From the NCBI GenBank assembly GCA_014871385.1, contig CM026429.1, positions 7,598,642 to 7,662,641 on the forward strand: DNA of 64,000 nt. Reading direction: 5' to 3'. Made by a program: the position numbers and the translations under genes. Shown piece by piece: positions 1,447-28,400 of this stretch; position 1 is the first letter of the stretch, and the number at the start of each line of letters is the position of its first letter. A model generated the notes under the pieces. It saw only the letters and a program-made list of their open reading frames with translations. It had not been told where the DNA came from and did no database searches. The DNA is from Ceratodon purpureus. Lineage: Eukaryota > Streptophyta > Bryopsida > Pseudoditrichales > Ditrichaceae.

Positions 1447-4400
1447 ATGGCGTTTCCCAGTAGAAAACGCAAGTGGAGGTCGACTGCGGAGATCATTCAC
1501 CATCACGAACTCCAATTCGCTGCAAGCAGGGAGGTTCCGATAACGAGATGGTCATGCCCATGCACGTACTGTCATGGAGGCCGACGCTTGCCTGTGCGCG
1601 CAATAACAAAGCATCTCCAATCTTATGGCCGTGACAAATTTCTGTACCGCTCTATGATTGGAGGAGATCCCCCAGAGGGGTACCCGGAGGACGGAGCATG
1701 GTACCACAGCGATGAAGAGTGGAGTGTGGACAGTAATGGACGCGATGAAGAGGTTTTTGAGCATCCTCTACCTGAAGACACGATTTCTGATCCGCCTGGC
1801 CACCACGATGTCCACAAGCAGTTTGAGGACGCTCTACGAACCGTTGAAGAGTTACAGGAGATCGCCCAGGATTCCGAGAATAGGACTAATGGGGACACTG
1901 ATGAGGCAGATTTTGCAGATAGCACGGTGGAGGCATTGGAGTTACTGTACTCGCAGGCATCACATGCAGTGTATCCAGATAGTACTGTGAGCCTAATTTC
2001 AGCAGTGGTTGTCATCATGACACTGTGCACGACGCACGGGGTCAGCAACGCATTTGTAACTGAGCTACTTCATTATCTGTTAGAGGAGCTTCTACCAGAA
2101 GGAAATGTATTGCCTGCGAAGCACTATAGCGCGAAGAGAATGCTGCAGGCACTCGGACGGGGGTAGCTTGTATGGTAGCGGCGAGCGGCGAGCGAAGAGC
2201 GGCGAGCGGAGATTTGGTGAGCGACGAGCAGAAAATAGAGGTCTAAATCTAAAAACAGTAATATTATTACTAAAAATAAAAACTATTATTAGCAAATTCG
2301 AATATTCTTAGAATATTTTTAGAATATTCTGAGAATATTACTATTTTTTGGTAATAATTATGACCCTATAACCGTGGACTGGAATTCACTATTTCTGATA
2401 ATTTTCAATCCAGGTCTTCTGTCCCTTTCTTTAATGTTAAAATGATCGAATAACTGAATTTCGAATCCTAGGTCATTTTCTTCACATTACTACATTTCTA
2501 CTTCAATTCTTTGTTTAATTATTCGAATCAACTACTCTTTCGACATTCTTCAATTCTACCCATCTTTTCAATTCCAATACTAACTGTCGTTTTATAATCT
2601 CTAGTAAATGTGTTACAGTGTTGATGTTAATCGGCACTTAATCTTCCATTTATTGGTGTTCAATTTTCTCTAATGTATATATTTATTTTATTGTTTTTTC
2701 ATTTGTCTTATTCCCTTCTTGGTTTTATTTTTAAATACTATTTACGGTTCGTATTAATGCATCATCTAGAAGTTGCATTTATTATCCTTTATTTATTTAA
2801 TTTTTAATTTTTTTTAACATTTTATCTTTTAACTCTTTCTTATCATTTATTCTTTTTATCTTTAATCGTTTTTTAATTATTTCCACTTTCATACCTTTTA
2901 TCTTTTCATTGTTTTTATTTTGTATTATCATTAATTTTAGTTTATTTTACACTGTTTTCTTTTTTTCTTCAATTTATATATAAAATCATCTTTTATCTTT
3001 TTTGATTTCTAATTTTTTTAATCACTTTTTTTTTTTTTTCATTCGTCCTCTAATTTACTATCTTCTAAGTCTTTACCTTTTCATTTTTTATCTTTTATCT
3101 TTTGAAAGACCTTCTAGTTCACTCTCCATTGATGGTTTAGGGTATTTTGTCTACAAACTAATCAAAACAGTGATGACAAACCTACTCATGCCATGGAGTG
3201 TTATAATATTTAAACCTTCTTATATATCCCACTATTCAAGGGCGCCGAGCATCTACCTCCTCAATATTTAAGTAGTGGCAGTAGAAGCTCTCATCCTCTT
3301 TGTTCCTGCTCTTCTTGAATCAAGTTCCAAGAAGAGCGTGTTGTGATATGGAAGTTGCCGGGGATACCACTATCTCACTTGGTGATGTCCTTGGCCCATT
3401 TCATCCGTATGAGGAGGAGGGGGAAGAGGAGTTGAATGGGTGCAATGAAGGGCATTCTGAAAATGATGGCGTGGAAGCAAAAATAGATGTGATAGGAGAC
3501 ATAGTGGCTGTAGAAGAGCCACGCGTTCTCGTAGTTCCGGAGGAGGAACCGATTGTCCCTTTGGCACCTCATGCATACTCCAAGGTCGGGAAGATTCCAC
3601 CGGGGACTTATTCTAGGGAGGCATTACGTGGAAAGAGTGAAGCTATTCCATTGTTGAAACGTCCCCGCCCACCACAAGTGCCAATTAGGGAACGAACAAT
3701 GAATGTCAATGTAGCTTGTCCTGTAGTGCAAGAGGTAGTTCGTGATTGTGCTGAAAATGCGAAGGGGATACCTAAACGCAATAAGTTCAAGGAATAAAAT
3801 CTATATTTGAATGTATTCACGGAGTGAGTACAGTCCAATTGTGCGTTGATATAAATAACATATGCCACTTGTTGAAATCAATGCTATTGTAATACAATGT
3901 AATAAATGTGAATGACAAAACCTTTATATTGAAATAGGCAATACGAGATTCGTATTGCTGACTCAGTACAAGGAAAAATTCAATCACCTCGGGCTAAGTA
4001 TCAGCATGAACCATTGTCCACTATGCATACTTGAGACCATAATAGTATAGTGCCTCCTATTTTTTGGCCAAGGGGTGTGTCAAGATTCCGCTCTCTAGGA
4101 CTAGCTTGACTTCGTTGAAACTAAAGGTAGGCGCATGGATGAAGAGCTCGGCCTCCGGATTACGGTTGCAGACCTTTAAAAGGATGTAATAAATATGTTT
4201 ACAGTATGAAAACTGTATCTTACCTCGAAACTTAGTCATCGTCTTCTTGAATGCTGGACAAGTGCAACTCGGGTAAGAGGTGATGGTGATGTTGTACTCT
4301 GTGATGTTTGGAGCAACGCCCGAATCCAGCCCGATGATGCAACCATGGCCTGGATGAGGTATCATGGTGATGGAACGGAGGCGAGCCTTGAGGGACTGAG

Positions 4401-7400
4401 AGGAGCCCATGGAGAGTCGCTGCGCCGGGTTAGGTCGAGTTGCTGTGCGTTTGACCATCTTCCCATCTCGCTTACCAGGGTAGCGGTCAGCCTCTGCTGG
4501 AATCGGCAACGAAGCGAGGTTTGCAGGAGGTGGAGCAGACGAGAAGAGACGTCTTGGGGAGACAGGCTTCTTCGCCGGGAGTTGGAACCCTGCAGCTTCA
4601 AGGGCGAGGATCTCATTAAGCTTTAGGTTAGTACCTAGTTTTACGGGCCACACCTCTGGAATTGGCGGCACTTCGAGGTCCTTGGAGTAGTGTGCAACCC
4701 ACTTGCGCCTTGTGCCTTTCACGCAGCGCTCAATATCATCGGAACAGAAGAAAAACTCTGTCCTCTCAACTGTATTCCTGCGATAGTTTGTCCAAACTCC
4801 GGTGTAGGTCGGTGCAGCAGTGAAGTTTGGGCCCCTGACAATTCTCTCAGTGCACTTCTTTTTTGTACCAGCTCTTTGGGCCCAGCAGCACTTTGCAGAA
4901 GCTCTGTGAAGTCTTGCAATGTGCCACTCCTTCACATCAACCTTGGTTTCTTCAACAGCGTTGACATGGCAAACGCCGACCTCGTTCACAGGAGACGTTG
5001 GGGGCGTGTAAGCTTCTTGGGCGGGAGATTCTTGGGCCTCTTCTTCTTCAGAATCGTCCTCGACGATGATGGGCAGCTGGACAGGACGAGCTCGAACGTT
5101 GCGTCCAACACCTCTAGGACGCGAGAAGTTAACCTTGTCTGGTCGGTGTGACTCCTCGTCAGCTCCGATGGGAACGTCCGCCTTACGCTTCTGTGATCCA
5201 AACACCTCTGCTCCGGCCAGGACAGGCTGACGGGTGCAGAACTCATCTGCACCAGGCATATCCAGCATGGGATCTTTAAGGACTTTAGGATTTCCTGTTT
5301 TCTTCGCCAAGCGTTCCGCCATTCGAAGCTTGAGTTCCTTCTTCGAAGGTCCAGTTCCGCCTACATCTCCTTTTAGAAACTGGTAGTAGTTTACAACCTG
5401 CAGAAAGCCCCGAACGTAATCGTCCACAGTCGCAACATAGAGGTCGTTGCCGTTGTTGCCTGATGCTTGTAACCACTTATTGTGAACTGTTTCGGCGAGG
5501 TTACAGGTCGGCATTTCTGTGAGTTCTTCTTCAGTAAATTTCTGCAGTTTAAGCAATTACAATTATTAGAATCGATTATAGAAGTGATGTCGATTAAATT
5601 TACCTCAACAGAAAACAAGTAGAGCAGCAGGGTTTAGTAGCATCATACCGCAGACATGAATCCACCCCATTGACGATAGCGGTGGTGCCAGAATGCGAGC
5701 CAAGTCCCCAAATTGGTTAGGGCCTTCTCTCCCAGGACCCCAGTAGATATCCACCAAGCCTGCAACGCGTGATAAAGAGTGTCCGCCTCTGTCAAAGTTG
5801 TTGCTGTCCTATACTGGTTGCACATCTTCTTGTGCTGTTCCCGGAGCTCTTCGGGGAAGTACTTGTCAGTGTACTGGACCATGTTCTGGGTCCAGTGGAA
5901 CAAGCATGACCTTTCCCGATCCTCCATTTTGTCTTCTTTGTTGCCGTTTCCGTAGAGAATACGCACCGCATTCCAATTTGCTTATGCATTGTCGGCCATA
6001 AACCCTTTGAAGTTTGGCGCTGCAATGCCATTCCTCTCCATAACGCTGTTTAAGTTCTTCCAGAAGACCAGTTGAGCCTCAGTGTCCTCGGATTGCATGT
6101 CGCAACTTGCAATCGTCATGACGCGGCAGTAGGTGGCGTCATATACATGGCAAGCCATCGTGGACCAATCCCGTACACGCTTCACGTGGTCGAACATAAT
6201 CCAAGCGTTGTCAAGATCCCCACCAGGTTGCATTCTGGTGACTAAGTCGACACCACTACCCGGCCCAACTTCTGACATCTTGAAGACGAAGACCTTCTCT
6301 CTGTCAGCTCCTTGGCCCGGGAACTTGTTCTCCTGGACGAAGGCCCACAAACTGATCCCACGGAGTTTGGTGATGGCGTCCATCACTCCGTACCTTGCAA
6401 TTCGCTTGAACGTCATCACCTTATTGCGGATATTTGGGGAAGCCATGTCCTTGCATCGGTCAAGTACAGGAATGAGCTCCTCCATGCTGAGCTTCTTCGG
6501 TGGTGCGTCCTCAGGCTGTAGGAGGTAGTTCCCAATCAGAATCTTGCTGGCCTCCAGGACAACGGCGCTCTTCGTAGCCCGGGGAGTATTCCCCACCTGT
6601 TCTTCAATCAAGCTATTGATCTCCTCCTTAGTGTCTCTATAGTCTCCAACCTTCACTGGATGATTATGTGTTCCTTGATGGATACATACCCTAGTCTGAT
6701 TGGATTTACCTAGAACGTAATAAATCTTGGCTCCGCATGTAGCGATGCATGCAGGAGGTTCTTTACATACCTTGCAGACAAGTGTTGCATCCGCTGGGGG
6801 TGGCTGATTCACTGTAAAAGCTTGGAGGGTACTACCCTCAAACTCAGTCTCGTTTACCTCAACGATTCGAGGTCGACGGTTGAGAAATTCACATTCTTTG
6901 TTGCCGCAGCGCAGCCAACCAACGCAGCTGGAGTAGCGGACCGACAGGCTGAACTCGTTAGTGATGTTGGTAGTGATTGTCTTCGTCCAAACGTGGCCGT
7001 CGTAACGCTTGTCCATCCCCTTCATAGCCTTCGCTTGCGTCTTGGAAGCCCCGTCACCAACTGGAGGGAGCTCGAATATCACATTGTTGTTGAAGACTGC
7101 AGGTAAGTATTCCACCTTCTCCTGACGAACCGTGGAGAAATCTATTCTCTTCAGAATATTTTTCCTCCCAGGTCTCTCAGCTACTGTCCTAATGAGTGGC
7201 AGTACATTGACAGTCTCATCCCTTGATGTCTGTGAGGTATTGGCACATTTCTCAGGTAGTGTAGCTGGCGTGCTAGATACTACAGTCTTTCTAGGCAAAG
7301 GAGGTGATGCCTTCAGGGGACTAGTCTCCTCATCTGAGGAGAGGGAGATGACTGGTGTTACATCAGGAGTGTCCAAGCCAGGCTCTACCTTAACCTTCAC

Positions 7401-10400
7401 ATCACGAGGCAGAGGAGTCTGAACAGTAGATGATCTACGAGGAGTTAGAATCTTAGTAGACGCCTGCATCTGGGACTCCGTAAGACCATAAACTCTGTAT
7501 CTACCAGGATAAAGGTTCCAGAACCTGTTATCATCATCATCTTTCTCAGAAACCTGATCTAGAGTATGTGTAATCTCATTTGTCTCATCATCATAAATCT
7601 CTTCCTCTAAACAGATAGTCTCCTCTCTGAAGTGAAATCTGAGGCTAAGGCGTTGTGCCGTCACAAGGGCCAAGCCATCCTCATCTACTCGTACTGTAAG
7701 TGGAATACCAACACCATGTGCTCTTAGCACGGCCATGCCTAACACTCTGTCTGCAGGGAGGTGAGCCATCGCAAGGGGAGAGGATAGTACTTGAGTACCA
7801 GATTTGAAAATCTAGAATGAGAGGAATGTTGCTTCGATTTTCATTGATTTATGCAATAGTATAACTGTCAGGACCCACCTAATTTTCAACAAAACATAAA
7901 TGAACGAATGTAGTTCGTTAGGTTAGCTGACATACCGATTATTGGTATCATGTAGCCGCCCATACTCATCGGGACATCATGCTTAGAATTCTACTTGCTC
8001 ACCTAATTCTCTCTGATTAGTAATAGCCGTCCACTTACGCGTAAAGTAGAATAATGTGATAAATTGAGAATGATTCATAAATACTAACTTTATAATAATA
8101 CTAAAAGACAAGAGTACATTGTTTTTAGATTGAAATAGATTTTCCAGTAATTATTTTAAAAAACTCCTTGACATCATGCTTTTGATTTTATTTGTAGGAC
8201 ATTTATGATTGTGAGATATGCGCCGTCATTCTTGATTTATTTATGTCATGGACTAAGTTTTATGTTTGTCCTTCTATCTTTTATATATATTTTTAATAAA
8301 CGCCGTTTCTAATTGAATCTTGTAAAGGAACTAGGCATCACGTTCAACGTCCTATGCCAGTAGAACAGCAGTGCCTCTGTACTGGAGTCATTCTTATATA
8401 TTTCTAGCTATGTGTGCAACTACTTCTTTTGATGTGACATGCAAACTGAGACTAGGAAGAGGAAGAGGAGAGGCAAGTTTTATTACAGTACTAGGAAGCA
8501 GTTAGAGGCAAGTAAGATGGGAAGGAAGAAGAAGGATACTCAGTTAGAAATGGCCGCTGTAACCAAGACATTAGATTTCGATAGAGTGGCTGAAACTTCT
8601 CAGATGGAGAAAGAAGATGTCGATAGCACAAGGCAATATGAGCGTCGAGGGAAGTTGAAGAAATCTGTACCTCAAGAATCATGCTCTAACAATACTGGTG
8701 GTAAAGACGTAAGTGACAGCAGCTTCTTTGAAATGACTTTGAATTGCCATGTACATGATTAGAAGTTGAACTAACGAGTTTGTACTAGTTAGGTTATGAT
8801 GCCACCCTAGAATGTCGGGTTATTTCCTCAGCCAGATGCAGAGCTGGCTTTGCACAGCGACGGTCTTTCATTGGACCACGACATGCAATGTACATGATGT
8901 GATGGCATCACTCTCATCATCTTGTCTTACCAGTTAGCTCAATATTTCACCGTAGAATTTAGGTTATGAAAACGTACTAGGTACCCACAATCGCATTGCA
9001 TTCCACTTCCGCATTGCTGCGCACCTTTGCAAGTATGTCGTTGCTGCGCTTCTAACTTTCGTCGCTTTTCTAGTGTTCACAGTTGGTGTGTGTTTACCTT
9101 AATGCTTCTTGTGCGCCATTCCTGTGTCGTGACTGACGTCTAGGACCGGTGGGTCTTGCAGGCTTCACAAACCATTGTAGAAGGAGAAAACATGTCTGCA
9201 GCCCAGGATATGCCGGAGCGATGTACGCAGTCGGGCTCGAGGGTCGAGATGGAAGGAGAGAACACCGAGACTACAGAAAACCGCGAAGAAAACGAAGGTG
9301 TGTACTCTTTCCCTTGCTGAACTTGTGGGTTCTCATTCAAATGCCGACCTTGAACGATTGCCGACTTCGGCTCATTGCCGACCTTGATCGATTTCACAAT
9401 TGGGTTGTTAGGTAGTGAGTCACTCTGGACATGAGCATCCAAGTTCATGCTTTTACAGGCACCAATTGATGTGCCCGTACCGGCAGTTGTCGTGAGGAGT
9501 TTTCGGGGAGTGGTACTTGGGTTGAGAGAGTTTCCTTATGGATGGTCTGAGGTGTTTTCAGTTTCTAGATCTGGATTGTATTCAGGTTGTTACATGTATT
9601 TGTAGTGTCGGATGCATTCAAGTTTGTATCAGGATGCACTCAGGTTGCAAGAAACTATCTCAGGACATCAGCCGTTTGGGGACAGAAATCAAATTCTCAT
9701 TGTCGTCTTTGGGTCCAGTGAAACTCGGTTCATGTTTGTTACTATGGTTTTTGTGTCTTAATTTCTCCATATTTCAAATTGCATAGTCTATCTCTCAGGT
9801 CAATTTCAACTTGGATACAGTAGTATATATGTACATTGTGTGACAATGAAAATTTGAAAGTACAATAAAGCCACGGTGCATTAGTTTTTTTTTTCTTTCA
9901 ACCATTTCCTTTTAACCAAGAGAAACTCTTCTAAGGCGTAAGGTATGGTTAGATAATGATCTAATCAGACTTCTCTTATGTAATTAGTAGTGAATCAAAT
10001 TTAACAGCAGTACCGAAGGATGCACTAGCCTTTAGCAGTATTGGAATTGTTATTAGTTGCACGTCGTGGCTTAGAATTTGTCACCTGGATTGATGATTGT
10101 TGCTTGGATCAGAGGTTAGTTGCTGGACATTGATGCTAGTCTTTTCACTGCTTTAGATGCAACCAATCTAGTAGTGATCAAGCAGCTAGTAGCTATTCCA
10201 CAACTATTTGATTGAGGTTTATATTCGATCGACTATTCAGAGATTTGTTTCAGATGTTATTCCACATGTAGGACTCTAAAAGCTTTGTGCTCAGTTAACC
10301 TTTTTCCATTAGGGTCCGGATGCTCTGAGTCCAGTCTCCATTCACAATTCTTATGCAAGCTTTGTCAGTCTCCTCTAAGGTCATTATGTGCGACTGTTTC

Positions 10401-13400
10401 ACTCTCGTCTTTTGACTGCCGGTGCCAGCACTACGAATTATGTTATATGAAATTGCATCTGTGTCACCTTATATCTTAGACCTTATCCTTATATTAATCA
10501 CTCGGAAAATAGAGTTCAAGGATCCTTAGTTTTCTATTTCAACTGCCGGTGCCGGCACTCTGAATTCCGTGATACAAATTTATGAATGAGACACCTGATA
10601 CCTGCTTGAGTATCTTCAATTTCTACTTCGTAAAACAAGTGCCGGTGCCGGCAATAGTTGTGCAGACTTAAAGTACGGATCTTGACGATCTCTAGAACTT
10701 GTTTTATGACTGCCACTGCCGACATTCAATCGAGGGCCGTGTATTTTTGTGTGTTTCTTTTCGAATAAAATAAGTAATCATGCTTAATTATTATTATTAA
10801 GTATGATGCTTGTCATTCCCTTTAACTTGTTAAATGACTGCCGGTGCCGGCAGTCAATCTCGAGGTTTGTTTTTCAATGCCCTTTCACATAAAAAAATTA
10901 TGTATTCGTGCTAACCCTTATTCTTAATCCTATTATTGTTCTTTCCCAGATAGTGCCGGTGCCGGCAGTTGTTCAAAACATAGCATTGAAGCTGTCTGAG
11001 AGATCATAATTATGTTTATTTGTGAGAACTCGAACCCTTGCATCGAAGTGCCGGCACCGGCACTATGAATAACTGCTTGGCATGTCTAGCTTTTTTTCTT
11101 TCTTTTGAACTGCCGGTGCCGGCACTTGATTTTTTTCTTTTGTCTCATCTATGTCCTCCGTTTATATGACAGTCTTCGCACTCCTGAGGTCACCAATTCG
11201 GTCTGTGCAAGCCTGATGATTGTCGGAAGAGAGTATTTTTTTTATGTCCATAAGAATTATTTAGTCCGTTGCTCAGTGCAAAAGCAGTAAGCGAGTCGAC
11301 CCTTGGGAATGATATCTTTGCCTCTCTTGAAGTGCCGGTGCCGGCACTTAGAATTTGTGTATTCTTTTACACTCAAATTGATTCTTATTGTTACTCTGTT
11401 TGCACTCAAATTGATTCTTATTGTTACTCTGTTTGCACTCACATTGATTCTTACTGTTAACTCTGATATCTGGAGCGTATGGTTGATGTTTGAGTAGCAC
11501 AATTGCCTGTAATTCAGCATTACTATTCTGCTCATATGGTTTGTTTTTTCAGGTCCTAGTATGTCTTGAGTACCTTAATCTAATGTTTAATAAGTGTTGT
11601 GATTAGACGAAAAGCAGAGTATTGCAGTCGATGTTGGGTATTCGGCTTGAGTTTGCAGTAATCTGATTGAGTTCTGAAGGCAAGATATACGGATTGATTA
11701 CGTCCAAGATTTACTCTGCAAGTCGCAACATGCAGCTTTTGGGAATACAGTTTTATGTATTTTTAAGGAATTGATAGCATGCCTGTGTATTTTTTTGGCA
11801 TCAAATGATGCACCCTACTCATCGTTGCTACTGGTTCTTTGATGTACTAGTATTAATGATATTTGATATTGTGATATTCTACACGGATGTAGTCTTTGAG
11901 CTGATTCAATATGCACAAGGATGAGGGCAATGCAGTGTTTCAGCAGATTTCATTTGTTTGTACTGTACTACGCGTTTGCTCTTTCTAAGTCGTTCTAGCA
12001 TGTCCATTACACTGCCGGTGCCGGCACTCGTAATCTGGGTTTTAATTTACTCTAACTTGATGACTTGTTTTGCAGAGAGTCCTCTTAGTGAAGGAAGGTC
12101 CTTGAAGGAGAAGGAACCAGAGGAGCCCCAGGCTCCACTCTCAGGCGCCGAAGTGAAGCAGAAGCTTCATGAACTCGTAGTAAAAGAGACAGTGAACACG
12201 GCATCGAGGCTGGAGCAGTTGAAGTGGGAGCCTAAATCTAAAGGGCGACTCTTTATTCCCTTGTGCAGAATGATCTCTCTACCCGTGGTCAGACCATATT
12301 TGAAGAATGATGTCTCCCAGTTAGCTTCTCATTTTACCACCTGCGGATACATGGAGGGGAACGGATATTTCTATGTCGCTATGGAAGACAACAATGGACA
12401 CACTGTGGATGTGTCACCATCTATAAGTGCAAAGTGGGGAGAGCTTTGGCACGAGGTCAACGATGACTTTGAGATGACACTAGCGAGTGATCCAGATCTC
12501 AGTGTCTTCTGCAACAAGGTGTTTATGGTCTGGGATGGGAATCATAGGCTACAAGCTTGGATGCCCATAATCGAAGAGTACCATTCCCATGACATCGACT
12601 GGCACTACAAAGTTGAATGTGTCATTCTTAATCCAAGAGGAGATGTTCCTTCAGTACTCACAGCACTTCACGAGGTCAATTGGTAAGTAATTCTCAATTG
12701 CATGCTCTTATTTATTTGGTTTTCCTTCATGTTCTTGTAACATCTTGACCTGATTATGTGCTATCATTCTCTGTAGGAGGAATCAGAAATCACATGTAGC
12801 CACAAATATTGTGCACAAGTTGTATCGAATTCAGAGAATTGCACCGCAGCCCTTTTCATACTTTGAAAAGCTTATTTCTCCAGCTGCAATGGAGAGTTCG
12901 AAAAAAAAGCTGTCTGGGCCTAAACGAACTTGGTATACACTAACTCTGGAGGCATTGAATGCAGTTCTCTATCAGGTGAGCTAGGAAATTTTGCCTAATG
13001 ATTTAACTTCTCCATTTATATTGATAATTTGATTATGTGTACTGTCACGACTATTAACCATTTTAAGTGTCAATCAGACCGAGCTTGGAGAGGCAGCAGC
13101 CATTGCGGAGCGAAGGTTCTATGAGCGGTTTCCACATGCAGAGCAGTGGACAAACAGATCGGTGGACGATTGGGTTAATAAAACAGTTAAGGCGGCCGAG
13201 TCTTCTCTACAGGCCGAGCTCAGAAAACTGCTACCCATCGCTGATCCAATTCACACGCCTGCGTTTCTTGAGCAGGTGAAGCAGCACTACGAAAAGTTCG
13301 ATGAGCAGCCGGAGATGCAGCAAGAGAAACTTTGGATGTTCGCCCTATCAGCTATGCCCACTCAAATGAAGATTAAGTGGCTACAGCGATGGAATTCTCC

Positions 13401-16400
13401 GAAGTCTATCCGAGAAGGACACAAGTTCCCGAAAGAGAAATTTGGAGATGCTGTATTTCTCCCTTGGCTCCATCGAGCAACGTGGTGGGCGCAAGTAAGT
13501 CAATAATTTTATTTCCTCTTCTGCTTGTCTTACGATTGTGGCTTGCTATTCGATAACCCCTTCTAGTTGAAGTATCATAGAACCGCAGTCTAAGTCCTTG
13601 CTATTCTACTGCACAGTAGCCTTAAACTGAACTGCCGGTGCCTTGAACTGTATCCTTGAACTGAACTGCCGGTGCCGGCACTTGAATCATAGTCAATTCT
13701 GTGGAGCGTAGATTCGAGTCAGATGAAGCTTGTGAGACTTATGTTTTGTGGTATGGGAGTGAGTTCCGGTTTTTCTCGGTTTATAAGAGAGAGTGAATCT
13801 CGGTTTATCTATGTGTATCTTAGGTCGTTGTAGACATGTGCAATAGCGAGGCCTTTGACGTCCATGAGTTGAAGAACCAGCTCTGGTGTGGCTCACGCGG
13901 CAAAACGCGATTATAAAATGAATCAAATAGTGCTCGTATTTATCCCTAGACCTAGAGTCATGAGCCTCGGTCGCAGCCTACAAGTGAACTGCCGGTGCCG
14001 GCAGTTGAATTATACCTCGGCGATAAGAATTCTTCTTCTCGGAAGTTGGCTTCGAGAGGTACGCACAGTCAGCTTCGAGAGGTACGCACAGTCAGCTTCA
14101 AGGAATCATTAACCGAATCACTTACTGGAAGTTAAAACCTAGAGTCGATCGGCATCGAAATGATGGACTCAGTTGATTTAAAGCCAATCTTCAGATCGGT
14201 AAACACTATGGGCTGCAAACAATTAGGGGTTCAGTTAGTTTTGATGTAAAGATATAGACCTAGGGAAGTGGAAAAAGAACGGTGAAAGTTTTAATTTAAA
14301 TTACTCTACTGCAGCGTCGATGTATTCATTGAAGCAGGCGACCACCTGAATGCCGAGGACGGTGATCCCAAGACATGACTGTGAGAGTATTTTTGTTTAA
14401 TTTGTAATTCTCGAATAGTAACTTTCTGGGTAGCGTTTGTTAAGATAGACGTTGAAATCATATTCAACCGACCTGGTCATATCCACCATCTTTTGAAGGA
14501 ATAAATGAGTTAATTCGGCAACTGCTGCATATATGGGTTTTATTTTTCCAAATACTAATTGTTGCAGCTCTGAGCTCGCCCATGCTTAGCTGGATATGAT
14601 ATATCTAGAAAGACGATAGCAGTCCCAATGCAAGAAAGACCGAGGATAGCACTTGTGAGGTTGTATCAAAAAAATTGGCTTCCTACTGTACAAGTGATTC
14701 GCTTTAGTGAGGGAATCAGGTTGTGTTTGGAGTTGTATTTTACTGTGCGACTTGACTTTGAACGAATGAGTGAGTGAGTGAACCGCGAGTGAGCTTGTGT
14801 GTGTGTTTGTTTGTCTTCTACTTGCTGTCGCATTATTCAAGAACCGGCTCTCTGTAATTGCTGGAATGGTTACAATTTAAGATGCAACTCAAGTGCCGGT
14901 GCCGGCAATGCTTAATGGCAAGATTTTACTTGGAATACTCTTTGGGAAAGTGGGAAAGCTGGGAATGAACAATTTAAGGTGCTCACTAAATAATAAGTAA
15001 CATTTCGCCAAGGTTCCGAATCATGTACTCCTATGAGGTTGTAAAGTGTCATAGCTTTTGAAAATCTAATTGCGCATTGACTTGTGTTGCAGCTAGCTAC
15101 TGAAGCAGAGGAGTTATTCAACGGAGTTGTGATGGATCTCAACGTGACTATCGATTATTCACCGGATGGAGGGTCCGTGATTCCCACAATATTTGACTGG
15201 GTGGAAGAAATGCGTTGCTCATTATGGGACACGGCCTTTTTTCGTGCGTTTACAGGAGAGGACCAAGCTCACAAAAACAAGACAGCTGCACAGCAGCCTG
15301 GATTTCAACAGGCATTGCGGAGAACGCTATACAGGTACTTTAAGTATGTTCTTTTAAAGCGAAGATTTGTAAGCAAGGTTCCAGCATTCTTTCCCAATTA
15401 TCTGGATACTACACACCAGGACAGTATGTTTACTCCGGCTATTACAAAGGCGTGGGACTCTTGCCATTATGAAAGCTGCGGATGGTACCTGGACTGTCCG
15501 GTGAAGAAGCCTCCAGCTTTCGATATCGAGCTCCGTGACTCTCTGCAGCCAGCGCTTGCAAGGATGCCACCTCCTGCTCCATCAGCCCCTGCATCAGATT
15601 CTCCGAGCCAAGTGGTTGTTGCAAACACCAAAGGCAAGGGAAAGGTCACAAAAACCAGAGGCTTGAAGAGGAAGGCCACCGAGATAGTGGAAGACGAACA
15701 GGAGGAGGATGTTATAGCAATTGTGGCGGCATCAAACCAGAAGGACAAGGCATCGAACCCAACGGACAAGACAACAAACCAGAAGGACAATGGAACCAAC
15801 GAGAAGGACGAGGCAACTATGCCTGTGACAGGGAAGCGGCCATCAGGAGCTGTAGCTCTTCCACAACCCGTAGCAAAGGTTGCATTTACCCCCCCTTCGA
15901 TGAGATCTATGGCAACAGTAGCCTCAGGGTCCTTACATGTCCCTACCTCCGAAGTCCTCATTATCAATGATTCGTTTCCTGGAATCATGGCGTTCAAGGA
16001 TAAACACAAGCGGTTTCCGGAGTCGTGGAACTCAATGCTTGCATTCATGAATAGGGTAAGTTTGAATTCATTCTGTGTGTTTTTTAGATTGGGATTTGGA
16101 CCTCTAATTTAGGTGGTTTTTCTAACAAAAATAAAATTGAGTGCAGGTTGGAGCGGATAGGGATTTTTTTTTCGACGGCAAACTTGTAGTGAAGCCTGCT
16201 GTGGACCTCGTCATTGCTGACTTTCCAGATGGATTGCATGTCCCTGGTATCTCCTCGGTTGCAAATGAGGTTCCACCTTGGAATGAGACTGTCCAAGACT
16301 TTATCAGGTACACTGTAGGTTTCTGTGGAGGTTATCTACATGACGATGGTGCACTACTTATTTTCTACCCGGACAGTGTAAATGTTGGCAAGGAGATTTC

Positions 16401-19400
16401 AAAATTTTTTAAGAAGAACAGACTCACGTTGAAGAGGGAGTGGACCATCATCAACTCTCTTCATCTTGCACACCCTTTGGATCCCTCAGAATACGTAAGT
16501 CACCTTATCTTTTTTGATAGTTCTTAAATATGTCTGCTTATAATTGATGAGTTCAGAATCTCTAATTTTTCATATTGATTAACATTGCAGACTCTGAAGT
16601 TCAAAGCTATGCTTTGTGTGCGATCATCAGAGGAATCCACCAAACGGAAGCCACAAGAGTTAGTGATCACAACTGATTCTCGCTTTCTGAATGTCAATCT
16701 GAGGAAAGATGATGTCCTTTATAATGTCGTAACAGCTGAGACGGCACTGATGAGAAAGGCAGATGCGAAATTCTGGAGAGGGCCGAAAGAAAAATCAGAG
16801 GCACTGCTACAGCTCCTAATAAATGGAGTTTGCCCGCAGGACGGCATCGTCGCAGACCTGACTGCTAGCACAGGTGAAAATTATAATTGATTGTCCACAT
16901 TGTTTTTTTTTGCTTGAATTATTTTCCAGGATCTCAAACTGAGTTTGCTTGTCTTCAGGGAATTCTGTTAAAGCTGCCAGGTCGGACAACAAGCACATTG
17001 TTGCTTTGGAGCCAGACACAGAACTTTTTGAAGAGGTTCTCCAGCCTCTTCAGGAAGGTGCAATGAGAGTTTTAGAGAAACAGTCTCACAACAACAACCA
17101 AGATGAAGACGAAGATGAAGAATTGTCAGATGAAGATGAGGTTAATTTATGTGAGTAAGTCGAATTCCGCTTGTGACTTCAGTATTTCATTTATTCTAAG
17201 CTGCAATTGAATAATCTTACAAAATAATTTCTTCTTGTTCAGTCTGAAGACCGCGAGTACGTGCTGGACCTATGCCTCACCATCGAGGTCGCATTTTGAA
17301 CTTCCCTGTTACGCGGAAGAGGCAGCGTGTCGTTATGCATCCGAATCTACAACCAGTTCAAGCGCGTCTTCTAGCCCTCGGAGAAATTATGACCCAAGGG
17401 TATTTTATCTCATAGATGATATTGCAGATGAGAGTGACGACGAGTTCATACCTTAGGTTCATATGCTTTTTAATTATCGAGACATTCATGGACCTCTGTT
17501 TCCTATGCTTGCATTCATTAACTTCATTATTTGCTTTAATCTTTTGTATTGAAATGGTTTCCATTCAAAGTAACTGCGGTCAATTCCTCAGTGCTTCCCT
17601 TGAAATGATTTGGACCTTTACTATAATTTATTTCTACTGTGTTATTATAACTGCAAGGGCCCTCACTGAATTAATTGCAGAATATTTGCACATCTTTCAC
17701 AATAATCTTAAGAAAAAAGTGAATCTGCACATCCATCGCCAGAGCAAGTAGCAGTGTTCACTCACCCGTTATTAATATTGCAATATCTAGAATGCCAGTG
17801 AGATCATTCTGGTCAAGATAGTTGGAAAACACATTGCATTCGGAAGTTACAGTAATTAACAAACCACAATTATAATTAAAAGTTTTATTAAAGTATCTCC
17901 CTATCCCCCATCCCCCTCTACCTCACCGTCACTCCCTATCCCCCATCCCCCTCTACCTCCCCGTCACTCCCTGTCCCTCACCATCCCCCTCTACCTCCCC
18001 GTCACTCCCTGTCCCTCACCATCCCCCTCTACCTCCCCGTCACTCCCTATCCCCCATCCCCCTCTACCTCCCCGTCACTCCCTATCCCTCCCCCTCCCCC
18101 TCTACCTCCCCGTCACTCCCTGTCCCTCACCATCCCCCTCTACCTCCCCGTCACTCCCTGTTTCTCACCATCCCCCTCTACCTCCCCGTCACTCCCTATC
18201 CCTCACCATCCCCCTCTAACTCCCCGTCACTCCATATCCCTCTTCCTTCCCCTCTACCTCCCGTCACTCCCTATCCCTCCCCCTCCCCCTCTACCTCCCC
18301 GTCACTCCCTATCCCTCCCCCTCCCCCTCTACCTCCCCGTCACTCCCTTCCCCTCTACCTCCCGTCACTCCCTATCCCCCATCCCCCTCTACCTACCCGT
18401 CACTCCCTATCCCTCCCCCTTCCCCTCTACCTCCCCGTCACTCCCTATCCCTCCCCCTTCCCCTCTACCTCCCCGTCACTCCCTATCCCTCACCATCCCC
18501 CTCTAACTCCCCGTCACTCCATATCCCTCTTCCTTCCCCTCTACCTCCCGTCACTCCCTATCCCTCCCCCTCCCCCTCTACCTCCCCGTCACTCCCTATC
18601 CCTCCTCCTCCCCCTATACCTCCCCGTCACTCCCTTCCCCTCTACCTCCCGTCACTCCCTATCCCCCATCCCCCTCTACCTACCCGTCACTCCCTATCCC
18701 TCCCCCTCCCCCTCTACCTCCCCGTCACTCCCTATCCCTCCCCCTCCCCCTCTACCTCCCCGTCACTCCCTATCCCCCATCCCCCTCTACCTCCCCGTCA
18801 CTCCCTGTCCCTCACCTCGCAATTTTTACTGTATTGCTGCATTTACTTATAGTCGATAAACAAAGCAATGAACTTTCAAAATGTATTGCAAGTCTTCTAT
18901 TCATTCAATTAAAGCAGTCACTGAATAAAATTAACGTCTGACTATCGCTCACTTCAATTCTCCAAGTCTTGTATTTAGATTAAAAATATAACTAAAGTTC
19001 TGGCCCTGTTATGGTAGCCGATAATGCTGCTGCTCCTTAGAAACTCTATGATATCATGTCGAGGTCTACTCAACTCTTCTTTCCTTCGACAGTTGGTCGC
19101 CTGATACTATTACTAGCTGCCTTTAAGACTGCTGTGAAGCTAGTACATTCTACTTGTTGTTGACTGTTCAGCTCACCACCAAACTGGGCAATCCAAGGCT
19201 CGGAAAGATGCAGTGGAGACGACGCCAGAAGAATGTCTTTGCAAATCAAGCATCGGTAACTTTGCAACAAAATCATCTCTGCTGCACATGGAGGGTGCAA
19301 GAAACATCCGCAAGAAGAGAGTATTGCTGCTTTCCAAATAAATCCGAGCCCACAATAAGCACAAGCATCTTTACCTGGATAACCCGTGGGCGGGATAGAT

Positions 19401-22400
19401 TGAATCTCTGGATATTCAAATACTCTTGGTGTTCTTAGAATCAGCATCTGCTCCCTTGCGGCCTTGACTTCCTTCTTACAAAGCTCTAACTCTTCTTTGA
19501 TATCCGCCAAGACTTTAGCCTCAGTTCCCATTTGAAGTTCCAACTCAACAACATTCTGCCGATTTTGAGCATCAACATCCCTCATATATGCTAGATCTTT
19601 GTACAACTCCTCAGACACGGCTATGGTTTCCTTGTAAAGATCAGTAGCACCCTCTCTACGTAGAATCTGCCTCGCCTCCTTCAGTTTAAAAGAATACTTC
19701 TCATTCAATTCCTCTTCAACAGCCTCAAGTGATTCACCTCTCATTCTATTGAGACTAGAATTATACCTCTGTCGTATATCGTGAAGGCGATCTTCTACTG
19801 ACTGAAGTGCAATCATCTTGTGCTGCTCTGTAGCACGACGTGGTGTCCGTATTCCTCCGGAAGGCACTTAATTCACACTAAATACCCTCCAAAGTAAACC
19901 ACTCCGTGTTCGTTCCCACGAAGACCTATAGTTTTCTTCCTTTTAGACTTTAACGGAAATCACCACCAGTGTCCGACCGTACTCCGTCTTACGGACGGTT
20001 GGACGAATCCGGTAGTTTTTGCCTCGTTCCTATTTTCCGGCTTTTTAGACTAGTGGCCGGTTCCCACTGATCCGTCTATCCTTTCAAGTGGCTGGATTTT
20101 CCACCGTCCCGTGACTTATAGTGGCTGGACACCCCACTGTTCCTATCTACCACCCGAGAAGTGGAGTAATAATCCTTCCGTACGGCTAGGGACCGGTCCG
20201 GATAACTACTCAGTGCCGGTTACGGATACGGAAATCATACTACAATGACATCACCTTACGGCTGCACGGTATTCTACTATACTATCTCCCTTCCGGATTG
20301 GTTCGCAGTAGGACATCCGGCTTTTATCCCATCTACAGGAAGCGACCGGTCCGTTTCCGGATTCCGGTGTACACACGGCTCTCCGTGTCCTTGAGACTAC
20401 CAGCCCTGCTGCAATACGTCTCTCCTCCCCTACGGGCTCCTTCCGGGACTGGAAACCGTCAACACTCGACGCTTGACACCTCCCCAGTCTCTCCGGGCGC
20501 TCTCCCGACCTTCCTACTGTTCAACACTCCTCCGGAACACTACTGAAGACAATAGTACCACAAACCCTACGGCAACGGACCCGTCAGCAGCCGGTTGACA
20601 CAACAAATCCAAAAGTATATTCTCAATTGCAACAACAAAACGGCGTACAAAAACAAGGCCCCGGCCTTGGAAAAACGTCAAACTTAAATACTAAAACCTA
20701 TCGGTTCCTAAAGCGACCAAGTGGCCCACCGAGATCCAGAAATTCCGGATCTTGGATCCGGGAATCCCGGACCGGTGGCCGCCTTCTATTCCTAGTTACT
20801 GCCGCTATCTATCCGGATTGGCAGCCGGGTGCACTGGAGCCCCATCGTTAGTCGCTGCCATTTTATCCGGTCCTTATCCTAAAATCTACTCCTTGTGCTT
20901 ATCTAGCCGGGGACTGTGCCGGGTTCCGTCCAACCGTTCCTTCTTCTGTGGCCGCTTCAGTTTCTTCAACGAGGGGCCTTCTTCCGGAGCCTCCGATGCT
21001 GACGGTTCGCTGGACTTCCGGGATCGGTCTACTTGAACTGCCGGGGATGGAGATCGTGCCGCCACCGGAACTGCGCTGAGATCCACCTGGAGCGTTTCCG
21101 GAGATCCCTGTACCGGTATAAAATCTACCGGTGGTGGTCTCTGGTCCGGTCCCAAAGGAATGTTTCCGGGGTTAACAGTCTCGACTCCATCCAAGTTGGG
21201 TAGAGTGTGCAGACTGCTCAAAGTATCCGGAATAGGATCCTCCAGCGGGTGTCCTACCTCCTGTTGGGCTGGCCGGATGGCCGACCGTATCGGAGAGGCT
21301 GGAGGTGGCACCGGTGCCGGTTCCCTGGTTGGGGACGGTGGTCTGGGATCCTCTTGATTGGCCGGTGGCCCTGATGACGGACCGGCCTCTGCGTAACCGA
21401 GGACTTCCACCAGGTTCTTCATCATCATCCAAGTGTCCTTCATCACCTGCGTCCGGTCGTGCATGAACTTTATAATATTCTTCATCGTCGGATCCGGTTG
21501 ACGGGTCAGGAAGGCTTGGTAAACGGCGCACTGATTGGCCACATCCACCGGAAGAGCTAAAGTGGCCTTGATCTCGGCGACCGACCGGATGGCCTCGACT
21601 GACCGGTCACGGGCGTCATTGAAATCTTTCCGGGCATCACGCACCTCCTCCTCGAGCTTCCGATTCGTTTCCCGGTACTTCGCTAGCCGGTCCATGTGCT
21701 TCTCCTGGAGACCGGCCAAGTCCCGGTGCTTGCGAAGAATACTCAGGCAATCCTCCAACCGGTCCGAACCCGTAAGGATCATTACCTCCCTAGCCAACCG
21801 GCCCTCCGCCTGCCTAGTCGACTGTAAGAACCGGGCATACGTCGTCGCCTGCTCCGATAGGTTAACTAAGTCCTGGTACGGATCTCCGGTGTGCTCCGGT
21901 GGTCCGGTGGGCTGTTGGATCTCCGTGTTCAGGGTTCGCTTGGCCGGTACGGGAGTCCGAGGTGATCCGGATGGCTGTCCCTTTTCCGGACTAGGACGGG
22001 GTCTCTTAGCCGGCGTGGGGGAGACCTCAATAACATCATCATCGTCGTCCTGGTCGGACACTTCTTCCGGCTCAGCGAACTGCTGATAGCTTAAGAGCTC
22101 ATCGTACTCCCGGACCTCCTCAGCACTCAACAGCCCCTTAGTACGGTAGAGGTGAATGAGGAAAGACGGAAGGCAGGTGGCCTGCTTCTTGGTCTTCCGG
22201 AGATTGGCCACCTGTCGGTCGATTATCGTCTTCATCATGACCCCCCAGTCCACCGTGAATTCACCGATCATGGCCCCAATGAAAACGGACGCCCACTTGT
22301 TGGTGATCCGTTTGGGCTTTTCCGAATGAAAAATAGGGTTCATAAACCCTACTACTCTCCGGGCCTCCGGATCCACAATGTCATCCAGCCCCCATCCTTC

Positions 22401-25400
22401 TCTCGGGTCTCCGGCCCCCTTGAGATACCGGTGTACGAAGTCCCGGGGCTCCGGCGTCGAGACCTCGCCGGAGTTCTTGAAACCATACGTCTCCCTCCAG
22501 AGTTGTGCCGTCCACTGATCCGGCTCTCCCCGAATGGTTCCTCGATTCTCGGGATTCTTGACGAGGATCTCCTGGGCCGGAAGGGCAAGCTTCCAACCCC
22601 ATGCCTTGTCCAGTAGGACCTCACATCTCATAGACTCCAAGGCGGTCCGGAGGAGCTCCTTCTCCTTCTCGCCGGCCGGTATCAACGGCATTACCCGTTG
22701 TACCCTGAACGACTGTCCTTCCGCCGCCGGTTCCTTCCCTTTCCTACCCATTCTGCTAAGTCCTCCTCTCCGTCACTCCGGTAACACCTGCACGCACGAT
22801 CCTCACCACAATCTCTCGCCTAACGGAAACACTTCCGTCTCACCGTCTCTCTCCTACCGTCTAACCCTAACTGCGCCCTCCGCCTTAGAGCGCAAGGACC
22901 CGTCGTGCCACAAAATGACAAAGAGAAAGGAGGAGCATGGCGGTTCTTCCTCCTTTTATACCTGCCCTCGCGCCCACCCGTTCGTAGCTCATCATGACGG
23001 ACGGTCGTAGCCCCTCATCATTGGACGGTCGCGACCGGCGGCGTTTTAATGGTTGCAGCCATTATCCCCGTGTGCGTTGTACCTTTTGGTGGTTATCCTT
23101 AAGTCTGCCGGGTCAGGGCTTTGTCATATGGACTGTACCCGTCTCTCCTCCACCGCAGACGACCGGATCTCACCCGGCTGGCCTTCCGGTCACTTATTTA
23201 TTCAGCCGACCGGCTTAACCGGTTGTTCTACTTATAGGCTTAGTACTTCCGTATTTCTAACATAAAATTTTTAATTTTTTTATCATTTTCCTACCGGAAT
23301 TAGTATTCCGGTGTGTCAACCGTGGAAATCACTTTCCACATGCTCCATTTCTAGAGCTGTCTTCAGGTCACGTCCTTGTTGATCAGGCAGAGCCACAGCA
23401 GCACCTAACTGAGAGAGCTCTTTGATAATCCGGCACAATCCCTCCACCTGACATCTGGTAGCGAGTGGCCCGAGTTTTGATGGATTTCGAAATGCAGACT
23501 TCTGTCGCATTTCGTGTCGGTCCAATGCCTCAGCGCACCAATTCACTTGCTTCCCATATACAAAAGTAGCAAAACAGGCTCTTAGAAATCTAAGACAAAA
23601 GTAGTTGTTATGTGGGCGATTACCATACACCTTAAAGTATTGTTGTCCGAACGCCTTCAGCTGGCCATCATCTTCACACCTTGAGAATTCGTACCGCCCC
23701 TTCTGCACTCCTGTCTTCCACACCGCACTTATTTCTTCATCAGATATGAAACTATAGCACTTAGCGACATCCTTCAGATGCGGACCCTTATCACATAGTC
23801 CTACAACCTTAGTGAAGAAATCACTCCCGTATTCAGCGTCACGCCCCATTAGCATTGGAGCCGCAACAACCATCCGTTCACGTAGACCCTCCTCAAAGTC
23901 CGCAAGATCGAACGGGTCACTGAACTCTTCGGTGCTGAACACTTTATCAATGCTCCCTTCACCATCGCTTCTAGCTACAGTATTATCGTCACTCACATCT
24001 TGGGTCTCTAATACCTGTTGCACAGAACTACAAGGTCTAGGTCTATGCTGCTTGGTGGACTTCTTCCTCTTTGACGCCATATGTTTCCCCCTAACCCCTC
24101 AAACTGTATCAAAGGTTTGCCTTCAGCTTCTCAGAAAGAAGCAGAACTAACGCACTGCTACGTAAAGGTAAAAAGACTATTCAAAGAAAAACCGCGCAAA
24201 TACAATACTATCTGTGAGTAACCAAAGAGTATAACCGAGACTAACAAAGATGACATCCGTAACCCGAGCCCTAAAAATAATGGCGAATATTTATTATGAT
24301 AATATGTGTTTCATATGAATTATATCGCTGCGGTACAGAAGAGGAGGTGCCTTGATTTGAAATAGACTGTACAAGCTTTGGTTCGTTTGAATGATGCTAG
24401 ATAATAGCGTTGGACATTAATACATGCAAAGTCCTTACTGTTACTTAAATTCGACAAGGTAGTGGAAGGGGTAATTGCTTATGATCTATACTTTATGCTA
24501 TATAAGTGCCAATTAAATTAATTTCCAGTATATGACATGGGTATATGACATGGTGTTTATAAATAAGAATTTGGATCCCAAAAAATTGGAACGCCATTGG
24601 AACGCCTTAAGACGTAGAAATTAGGGACTACATATATTCATCTACACCCATAACCCTTTAACCTCTAAACCTCAACTGAAACAGTTATAGTCCGCATTTA
24701 GGATGGCTAACATCATGCTAAACAAAAGAGTTCAACAAAACGGAAGAAACTCAACAAAACGGATAAATAACAATAATGAATATAAGAATCACTAGAATGT
24801 TTGAAAAATAATAAAACTGACCAAGGGTAAAAGGGGATGAAGAATTAACAATGAATAGTAGAATCCAAATGATAAACTGGTAGAAATAGTTTCAAATAAT
24901 TTGGTTTTTTAAAAAGGGAAACATCGAAAAAGAATGATTTGAATGGCAAGTGTATCGAAGATACATCATAAAAATTAAATAAATTAAAAATGAAATAACA
25001 ATAGGACTAAACTGTTACAATTTTTTTTCTTTTAATTGGAGAAAACAAACAATTAGTTGATTGGACTTCTGTCCAATTCATACGCACACATAACTAAATG
25101 TGAATACATTTGTTAAACCAAAATTCAAATAGGAATTCTTTGTTTATATAATTATCGATTTTCTGTTTCTAATATACAGAAATCTTGCATTAATAATTTG
25201 ATGATTATATCTATCTCATCTATGTTTAGGAGAGATCCAAATACCGTCATCTGGAATGAGTTTCTCTCCCGCTTCAAGCCACAGAGATTGGTTACCATTC
25301 CTACTTAACAATGTCCTCAATTGATCTAACTCACTGCAACTAAGTTCACCAAGTGACATTGTTTCTAGCCTGTCATTTCCAATTGGATTTGCCAAAGACC

Positions 25401-28400
25401 AAGAATTCTTAAAAATGTTCCAGTTCACATTGAAGCGCACCGCTTGAAACTCATCCCTGGAAGTCCAGTGCCCTCCCGTGTATGAATCATAATCCCACTT
25501 AGCAAGTCGGAGGCAAGCGTATTCTGTACTGCTATCAATCTCCCGTCTCCAGAGCTTGGAAACAGCACGAGCATTCTGTACATCTTGAAATGTAATTACC
25601 AGTGGAGGAGACCAACACTGTGTTGTACTAGAGCCCACTGACTCCCAAGGGTTAGGTCCATCTGCCATCCGTTGTAGCAAATCCTGAAGAATTGTTTCAC
25701 AAGCTATGACTTCAAGGGAATTGCTCATTCTCACAAAACTATGTCTACCATAAGCAACACACACTAAAGTCCTAAACCAATTGCTGATTGAAATAAGTTG
25801 AACTCAACCCACCTAGGTTTATATAGTATAACACTTGACTTAAAAAGGTACAGTAGATCTTATCCGAAGACAAAGAGACTAACAATAATTTCAGGCATTT
25901 CTAGGAGGTATATAATTTTGGACTCATTATAAGCATTATTGTACGCCTATTCTGAAATATCCCAACAAGTTTCCAAAGGTATATTATCTGCTATGCAAAT
26001 TTCTTTTCAATGTACCAGAGGCCAAGAAGACCTAGAGCTCATATAATTTAAATATTCTCACTTATTAGCTCTGAACATGACGTCATCAAGACGTCAGCCC
26101 TAATTTCCTTTCTCTATATAAAAGTCGTGTATAAGTGAATGTGAAATAAAGTAGTTCAAATAATAAATCCACGGAATTAATTATCTTTTTTAATCTGATT
26201 TCTATAAATAGAACCCTAAATTTAGTACTGCTCCACGGTTATAGGGTGCATTTCTTTTCCTAAAAACTTGGTAAAATGTCATATCTCTGCTCTCCCATCT
26301 CCGCTCGCTGCTCTCCGCTCGCCGCTCGCCGCTACCATGCTAACTTTCCCCGCACTGGGACTAGCGTACAATGTTATACATGCTTGTCCCGCAGGTTGTG
26401 TTCTATTTCGTGGTGAGCACGAGGCTTGCGAATCATGTCCCCGCTGCGGGAAAAGCACATACAGAGAAGGTAGCGTGTGTCTTCTGTAGCGCACTGTATG
26501 TCATATGGAGGTCAACGTGTGTTATCCGTAACGCATCCCATGTCACCTGCTACTCAGTTTACTACATCTGTAACGCAGTATATGTCATGTTAAACGTAAT
26601 TTATGTCATCAGTAACTCACTGTATGTCATCTGAAACGCACTTTATGTCACCCTTCCTCGAATGCATTCATGTCACTTTAGTCGCAGAGTTTGTCATCTG
26701 TAACACAATTTGTGCCATCTATAACGTGATGTAGTTTTCTCTGTACCTGTATGCAGGTACGAAGACAGCACCGATGAAGGTGGTAAGGCACTTCCCCCTT
26801 ATTCCGAGGTTGAGGCGCATGTTTGGCTCTCCTGCAATTGCAAAACTTCTGAAGTGGCATTCACAGCGTGGCGTGAGCACGAACGGGGATGGTGAGATCG
26901 CGATGGACAGTGTTGTCGACAGTCCCGCTTGGAAACACATTGGAGTCATAGATCCCACATTCCAAGCGGAGAACCGGAACGTCCGCATGGCACTGTCACT
27001 TGATGGACTGAACCCTTTTTCGGTTCGGAGTACGTCACATTCAACGTGGCCTGTTCTTTTGATAATTTACAACCTACCGCCGTGGTTACTTACAAAACGC
27101 TTTTTCATCATGCTGAGCATTTTAATTTCGGGCAAGGAGTCACCAACAGACAAGAACATCGATGTTTTCATTGCGCCACTTCTGGAAGAATTGCATGGCC
27201 TTTGGGGAGGCGTACCAGCCGTGGACGCTTCAGCAGATCCCGGAGAGAGGTCCTTCACACTTCGTGGCCTGTTATTGTGGACAATCTCGGATTTCCCCGC
27301 GTATGGCTTGATCTCTGGACAGCAAACCAAGGGCTACAAGGCTTGCCCAGTTTGTGGCCCGAACATTGTTTCCAGGAGTGCGAGGGGCCCGAACGGCCAG
27401 AAGATAGTGTACGTAGGTGCACGCCAACGTCTTCCAGAGGACCACGCATTCCGTACCGATATGCGCTTCAACGGTCTTGAAGAGAACGGTTGTTCCTGTT
27501 CAAGGATGACTGGCAACGACGTCCTGCAATTTGCAGAAGAAAGGGAGGCCTACATCGCCTCTGGTGGCAGGGCAGACGGCCCAGCCGATCCTGTGAGGAG
27601 GCACGGAGTGAAGAGAATTTCCGCGCTTTACTCCCTTCCATATTGGAAGGTCTGGGCCATGTCGCTGACTACTTTTTATTTCTGCTCCAATCCTGAATAT
27701 GGTTAAGTGCACGAGGCAAAGCGTAACGTAAAACTCTGTTAAACCGCGTCACGGTGATGTCATGTAGAACATGAACCTAGGACATAGAGTACCGTCACTT
27801 TAAACACAGAACATCGTCTATTCTCTGTCAACCTACGTCACTTCAATGCCTCAGTTTCTGCATTCCAATTTTTTTTTTTAAATTATAGAATTTTGACGAC
27901 GGCCCGAAATGTGTGGTGCAGGACTTGCTCATCAGGCACACCTTGGACGTCATGCATTGCGAGAAAAACCTATGTGAAAATATAATAAAGACTCTGTTTG
28001 GGGAGACTGACTTCCCTCGAGGACGCATGGACTTCAAAGACATGGGAGTGAGGTCTAACTTATGGTTGAGACAGACCGACGGCACAGACGGCCGGCTATT
28101 CATGCCACACGCACCTTACGTTCTCCTACCACAAGCGACGAACGACATGCTAGCTGTAATAGGATCGACGAAGGTGCCTCAGAATTATGCAGGCGCCATT
28201 CACAAAAGGGTGTCTGAAGGAAGACTGAGATTTCTTAAATCTCATGACTTTCACATCCTAATGCAACAGGTAAGCGAATTTCAATTCTACGTTGCTATTA
28301 TGTTTAAGTTGACGTAATGATTGTGTGTCAGCTATAGAGATACAAACAATATGTTACTTCTCCTCACTGGAACGTTTTAGTTAACGCCAGAGCACGTTTC

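Follow-up and report, generated by a model that had tools for sequence, protein, structure and literature searches.

In the moss Ceratodon purpureus, a giant DNA transposon carries a dense array of a short near-palindrome, spread over two introns of a single gene. The window, meaning the whole 64,000-nucleotide stretch analysed (GenBank assembly GCA_014871385.1, contig CM026429.1, positions 7,598,642 to 7,662,641; coordinates below count from its first letter), contains the entire element, 24,193 bp at 2159-26351 with terminal inverted repeats (TIRs), which interrupts the tnp2 gene of another transposon. The motif-bearing gene is on the strand opposite the element's transposase-like gene, and its product is predicted to join a ParB-like domain to a methyltransferase-like part. 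With a probability only a little above one half (about 0.53), the motif copies are a binding-site array of a selfish element, read by a protein that the element itself encodes.

The exact 14-mer, TGCCGGTGCCGGCA, occurs 11 times in the window, always at 10544-14907. Not one copy arose in 100 dinucleotide-preserving shuffles (maximum 0), which rules out a chance origin of the array; an earlier note, made from the sequence without database searches, had put the chance expectation far below one. Four degenerate copies, at 9472, 10417, 10711 and 13633 (two, one, three and three mismatches, respectively), bring the total to 15 at 9472-14907, reproducing that note's 11 exact and about four degenerate copies within 5.4 kb. 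Eleven are in intron 2 and four in intron 5, all in noncoding DNA of the element's gene. These introns (2778 and 1598 bp) are its two longest, the other seven being 85-453 bp; the placement of all copies in two introns of one gene stands, but their former numbering as 1 and 4 has become 2 and 5 with the addition of modelled 5′ exons. Outside them there is, window-wide, neither an exact nor a one-mismatch copy, as had been claimed for the 64 kb, and with all 15 inside the delimited transposon the array is, within the window, private to one element. Weaker matches occur elsewhere at 21057 and 57526 (two mismatches) and at 1589, 4495 and 55497 (three), against expectations from a first-order Markov model (five simulated sequences) of about 0.2 sites with two mismatches and 1.4 with three per 64 kb. 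Given these expectations, it is chiefly their location that qualifies 10711 and 13633 as copies. Matches at 12019 and 13673 are exact copies read in a shifted register and were excluded from the count.

When 10-mers with at least five copies in the element are ranked by over-representation, the first eight are all fragments of the motif, while the same test on 26353-64000 yields a CTG repeat only (the minisatellite described below was excluded, and 1-2158 left out). A tandem repeat is ruled out for the set as a whole, since none of the detected tandem arrays includes the motif core and the spacings range from 34 to 1620 bp. The earlier statement to that effect needs qualifying for two pairs: 13633 and 13667 appear to be a local duplication, and 10711 and 10839 have a common left flank. 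Directly ahead of the first degenerate copy, at 9342-9393, there are three 17-bp units beginning TGCCGAC, perhaps decayed half-sites.

Alignment of the 15 copies on the core defines the unit as an 18-bp near-palindrome, A-S-TGCCGGTGCCGGCA-N-T, that is ASTGCCGGTGCCGGCANT, with a non-palindromic TG at its centre. Position -2 is A in 14 of the 15, -1 is C or G in all 15, and +15 is T in 14; of the arms AAS...STT proposed earlier these columns hold up, whereas +14 (C 7, G 4, A 3, T 1) is C or G in 11 only, and the outer A and outer T are present in nine and eight copies, respectively. Information exceeds 1.3 bits at -2, -1 and +15 and falls to about 0.5 bits or less outside -2..+15, with the exceptions of -13 (0.65 bits) and +25 (1.0 bits), and this sharp drop at the 18-bp edges is counted as binding-site-like. 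For 14 copies, pairwise identity in the first 20 bp of flank is 0.33 (left) and 0.30 (right) against a background of 0.266 (standard deviation 0.012), and over 60 bp it is 0.275 and 0.286 (background 0.266, standard deviation 0.008). Such near-background values, together with the few alike pairs, suggest that the majority of copies are old or arose independently, a few being local duplicates. The contrast of conserved core and diverged flanks drawn in the earlier note is thus right on average, though 10711 shows the reverse and the near flanks are not wholly unrelated.

The spacings of the eight intact clustered copies at 10417-11333 are 127, 96, 199, 115, 95, 62 and 222 bp; if a helical turn is taken as 10.5 bp, none of the seven departs from a whole number of turns by more than 0.14 turn (P 0.0003 for that period, and 0.035 when periods from 6 to 20 bp are all admitted). 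With 10711 included, the nine local copies give P 0.003 and 0.16 for the same two comparisons, the 12 intact copies 0.006 and 0.11, and all 15 copies 0.003 and 0.16, with a best period of 6.75 bp. Across the whole 5.4 kb, 14 copies yield R 0.81 at 10.51 bp, a value matched by 1.2% of 500 random sets (periods 9.5-11.5). Helical phasing is suggestive only, the test being post hoc, with period and subset chosen after seeing the data. Retention of CpGs (26 in 14 copies) says little, because motif-free sequence in the two introns has CpG observed/expected ratios (0.62 and 0.86) close to those of six exons (0.62) and the transposase region (0.70).

How such an array might be used can be sketched. 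A protein encoded by the element, most likely the product of the motif-bearing gene itself, would recognize ASTGCCGGTGCCGGCANT as a dimer or a larger complex. It would approach the clustered copies in the gene's two long introns along a single face of the helix, and by docking there it would mark the element's own DNA. Either the element would thereby be kept from silencing, as with VANC proteins on VANDAL elements, or the gene's own expression would be regulated; both the identity of the reader and the effect of docking are what we infer. Several findings weigh on the other side. In the pair 10711/10839 the core of 10711 has decayed while its flank is kept, which speaks against selection on every copy; 13 of 14 copies share one orientation (13:1, P 0.0018), a bias that could stem from direct duplication or from an asymmetric reader; and the element's ends and the promoter gap are without motif sites. 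Among the 11 exact copies the centre reads TG on the gene's strand in ten, as first noted, and CA in one.

An unlikely, though not negligible, alternative is neutral local amplification, in which a chance palindrome was spread by small direct duplications and its flanks drifted, with no function. The slight likeness of the near flanks, the right one being still at 0.286 over 60 bp, the resemblance of 13633/13667 and 10711/10839 to local duplicates, and the orientation bias, for which common origin would account, are all in its favour, but with mean flank identity near background, 11 of the 15 cores are exact, and drift should erode the core too; nor are edges sharp at 18 bp, or the post hoc 10.5-bp phasing, what it leads one to expect. 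Sharp edges and irregular gaps would also result if the copies were tiny mobile inserts, an 18-mer that spreads by itself having been sown into the introns. With no bordering direct repeats visible by eye in the copy alignment, and no exact or one-mismatch copies outside the two introns within the window, that origin is extremely improbable.

That a host transcription factor binds the sites is distinctly unlikely, whether they would serve as enhancers within the introns or, should transcription in fact begin ahead of exon 3, as part of the promoter: such a site should recur elsewhere, and the rest of the window is without an exact or one-mismatch copy. Any protein's site would, however, give the same edges and phasing, the densest cluster is 0.7-1.7 kb ahead of exon 3, and the exons on its 5′ side are model predictions. 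Action at the RNA level, with the palindromes serving as intronic hairpins or splicing signals, is very unlikely, even though a single orientation prevails on the transcribed strand and hairpins are predicted with 8 bp for three of 14 copies and with 7 bp for one more. Seven of the 14 give a 5-bp stem and one is unfolded, and with the truncated 13633 set aside, -1 and +14 complement each other in four of 14, against a shuffle mean of 5.3. An RNA hairpin was rejected for want of covariation, and a known RNA family because nothing in the window matches Rfam at gathering score. Because -1 and +14 vary without complementing one another, half-site reading of duplex DNA fits better than a hairpin. 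A more elaborate version of the binding-array proposal, and a decidedly doubtful one, has a centre like parS at which a nucleotide-gated ParB-type clamp, fused to an inactive methyltransferase-like reader, would load at the intronic 18-mers and, by sliding along the 24-kb element, protect it from silencing. Since ParB nucleates at parS and spreads with cytidine triphosphate (CTP), a ParB-like reader could act over kilobases.

The gene was modelled with splice sites chosen by eye from sequence alone, all of them GT-AG. Its exon-3 domain probably folds like ParB-N/sulfiredoxin: the structure model has a predicted local distance difference test score (pLDDT) of 85.7, and both structure aligners put ParB chains first. 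A box of the G-x-H-R type has a role in that superfamily, and in the family alignment each residue of the D-G-N-H-R box is kept in 54-56 of 56 covering rows. The ParB-like fold is supported but not settled. Neither ParB nor Srx Pfam models match any of the 59 family members; DndB matches three (best E 0.0059), with others equal or better, for example MC2 (0.0029). Sequence searches of PDB gave no ParB/Srx-type match, and a DNA-reading helix-turn-helix (HTH) was not identified in the protein. Beta-class N6/N4 DNA methyltransferases have the catalytic motif (D/N/S)PP(Y/F/W). The C-terminus here weakly resembles such an enzyme with that motif altered, the position reading DFPD, DYPD, EYPD or DIAE in nine of nine covering rows. 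PF01555 matches exons 7-9 with E 0.0033 and 17.9 bits (cut-off 26.7) and the whole protein with 14.3 bits, one relative scoring 14.0 bits and another giving no match; among NCBIfam models there is only a weak CcrM match (E 0.018). The structure model of this part (pLDDT 42) is too low to use.

The flanks of the transposon, joined across the insertion, form a single open frame, KRMLQALGLAYNVIHACP / KRMLQALGLAYNVIHACPAGCVLFRGEH. Since this frame joins a weak Transpos_assoc match (E 0.016) in the left part, 1399-2158, to Transposase_21 (E 1.7e-65) and DUF4218 (E 3.1e-31) in the right part, 26352-29241, the element is taken to sit in a tnp2 gene. Mutator-like elements (MULEs) are characterized by long TIRs and by target duplications of roughly 9-11 bp. 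The ends found here are of that kind (47 of 54 TIR bases matching and a 10-bp target duplication with nine of ten identical), so that part of the earlier MULE label has held; the SWIM zinc finger match of the transposase-like gene (E 0.019-0.054), however, is below the Pfam cut-off and no MULE transposase domain was matched, leaving the label plausible but weakly tested. This gene has an in-frame stop at 5982-5984, directly after FMADNA, and the neighbouring ParB-like gene is open over its 1184 amino acids.

Parallels are found in several systems. In the transposon En/Spm, the repeats bound by TnpA are subterminal, at the element ends. Here too many short motif copies are inside one element, with binding by an element protein putative, but they are 7-13 kb from the left end, in introns. 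Bacterial ParB nucleates at a 16-bp parS and spreads with CTP; likenesses are the probable ParB-N-like fold and the clustering of short palindromic sites at the gene, and differences are the eukaryotic transposon setting, the lack of a significant sequence match and of an identified HTH, and nucleotide binding that is only putative. Another counterpart is a giant Sola1 element of Ectocarpus (Sola1-1_Ec32, 21.5 kb against 24.2 kb here) that encodes, opposite its transposase, a long protein (1104 against 1184 amino acids) with ParB-like and N4/N6 DNA methyltransferase domains; the moss protein has a probable ParB-like domain and a methyltransferase-like part whose match is below cut-off. In the available text of PMC12477816, where this protein kind is already reported from giant algal transposons, the authors suggest that such proteins bind and modify their own transposon, and transposase genes of such giant families are often pseudogenes, as the broken one here would be. 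The moss element differs in being MULE-like, in its altered catalytic motif and in its candidate site array, the account available in PMC12477816 naming no target sites. The two proteins are likened by size, strand and probable domains; this likeness lends independent weight to the bind-and-modify suggestion and slightly strengthens the case for a binding array.

For the logic of self-recognition, the VANDAL elements of Arabidopsis are a known case. The 9-base motif bound by VANC21 occurs in VANDAL21 introns and in the element's intergenic and terminal noncoding DNA, and methylation is lost there (PMC5735166); VANC6 uses a different motif (PMC10398659). In those elements as in this one, a DNA transposon carries an accessory gene in addition to its transposase, and one short motif is present in many copies in introns or other noncoding DNA of the element. 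Unlike the VANC motifs (YAGTATTAY, AGTTGTCC), the moss unit is an 18-bp GC-rich near-palindrome, is not in tandem-repeat arrays and is limited to two introns of one gene; the likeness drawn is one of logic. If the sites are indeed read by the element's own protein, short-motif self-recognition by transposons would exist in mosses with a quite different protein. As a dense array in the gene for such a protein, the near-palindrome offers a concrete candidate target, which makes the bind-and-modify idea directly testable in vitro. Were the sliding clamp correct, the ParB-methyltransferase proteins encoded by giant transposons would gain their first candidate target sites. How short motifs can free an entire element of methylation, enigmatic for VANC, would then have a possible explanation in spreading from a few sites.

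Relatives were sought widely. The full-length protein gave no match at E<=0.001 among 7993 scored; five scans of viral contigs with proteins or alignments found no relative, two scans of genome contigs no relative either, and phage records no match, and no relative's DNA was found in the contig collections scanned. Scanning viral contigs for the 18-mer pattern picked out nine stretches with one site apiece. Among 115 relative proteins there were no peptide traces of the motif, the single pattern match being the methyltransferase-like motif of one of them (P0102). A literature search, with subscription journals mostly outside its coverage, found no moss element with such an array, and the available portions of PMC5512222, PMC6431247 and PMC6446971 contain no moss case.

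Table 1. Coordinates of the motif copies, the gene that carries them and the borders of the transposon (window positions)
Feature	Position	Strand	Basis
Degenerate copy, 2 mismatches, centre TA	9472..9485		mismatch scan
Copy, 1 mismatch	10417..10430	+	mismatch scan
Exact copy	10544..10557	+	exact count
Exact copy	10640..10653	+	exact count
Degenerate copy, 3 mismatches; left flank resembles that of 10839	10711..10724	+	mismatch scan and alignment
Exact copy	10839..10852	+	exact count
Exact copy	10954..10967	+	exact count
Exact copy, sole opposite orientation	11049..11062	-	exact count
Exact copy	11111..11124	+	exact count
Exact copy	11333..11346	+	exact count
Exact copy, exon 3 begins 49 bp on	12013..12026	+	exact count and gene model
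Truncated copy, apparent local duplication with 13667	13633..13646	+	mismatch scan and alignment
Exact copy	13667..13680	+	exact count
Exact copy	13990..14003	+	exact count
Exact copy	14894..14907	+	exact count
Gene carrying the array, ten modelled exons, 1184 amino acids, no internal stop	8517..17456	+	gene model
Modelled exons 1-5 (5′ exons predicted)	8517-8708, 9162-9297, 12076-12682, 12777-12975, 13078-13494	+	gene model
Modelled exons 6-10	15093-16055, 16147-16494, 16591-16873, 16959-17154, 17243-17456	+	gene model
Intron 2, 2778 bp, 11 of 15 copies	9298..12075	+	gene model
Intron 5, 1598 bp, 4 of 15 copies	13495..15092	+	gene model
Exon 3, probable ParB-N/sulfiredoxin-like domain, box VWDGNHRLQAW	12078..12680	+	structure model and family alignment
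Exons 7-8, methyltransferase-like part, VDLVIADFPDGL and ADLTASTG	16147..16873	+	PF01555 below cut-off; family motifs
Left target-site duplication GCACTCGGAC	2149..2158		flank comparison
Left TIR	2159..2212	+	47/54 bases match right end
MULE-like transposase gene, weak SWIM-type zinc finger	4057..7811	-	open reading frames and SWIM match
Right TIR	26298..26351	-	47/54 bases match left end
Right target-site duplication GCACTGGGAC	26352..26361		9/10 identical to left copy

Just 3′ of the motif-bearing gene, and still within the element, there is a C+T-rich minisatellite of about 25 copies of a 38-bp unit at 17897-18816. Beyond it the element has four further minus-strand open reading frames, at 19070-19867, 20886-22772, 23316-24098 and 25216-25803, for which Pfam gave no convincing match; the first has an end that, by eye, is cysteine-rich and RING-like. 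Outside the element, open reading frames at 61167-63629 resemble, by eye, pieces of retrotransposon gag and of reverse transcriptase/RNase H, and one at 45253-45852 looks, again by eye, like the start of a chloroplast monogalactosyldiacylglycerol (MGDG) synthase.

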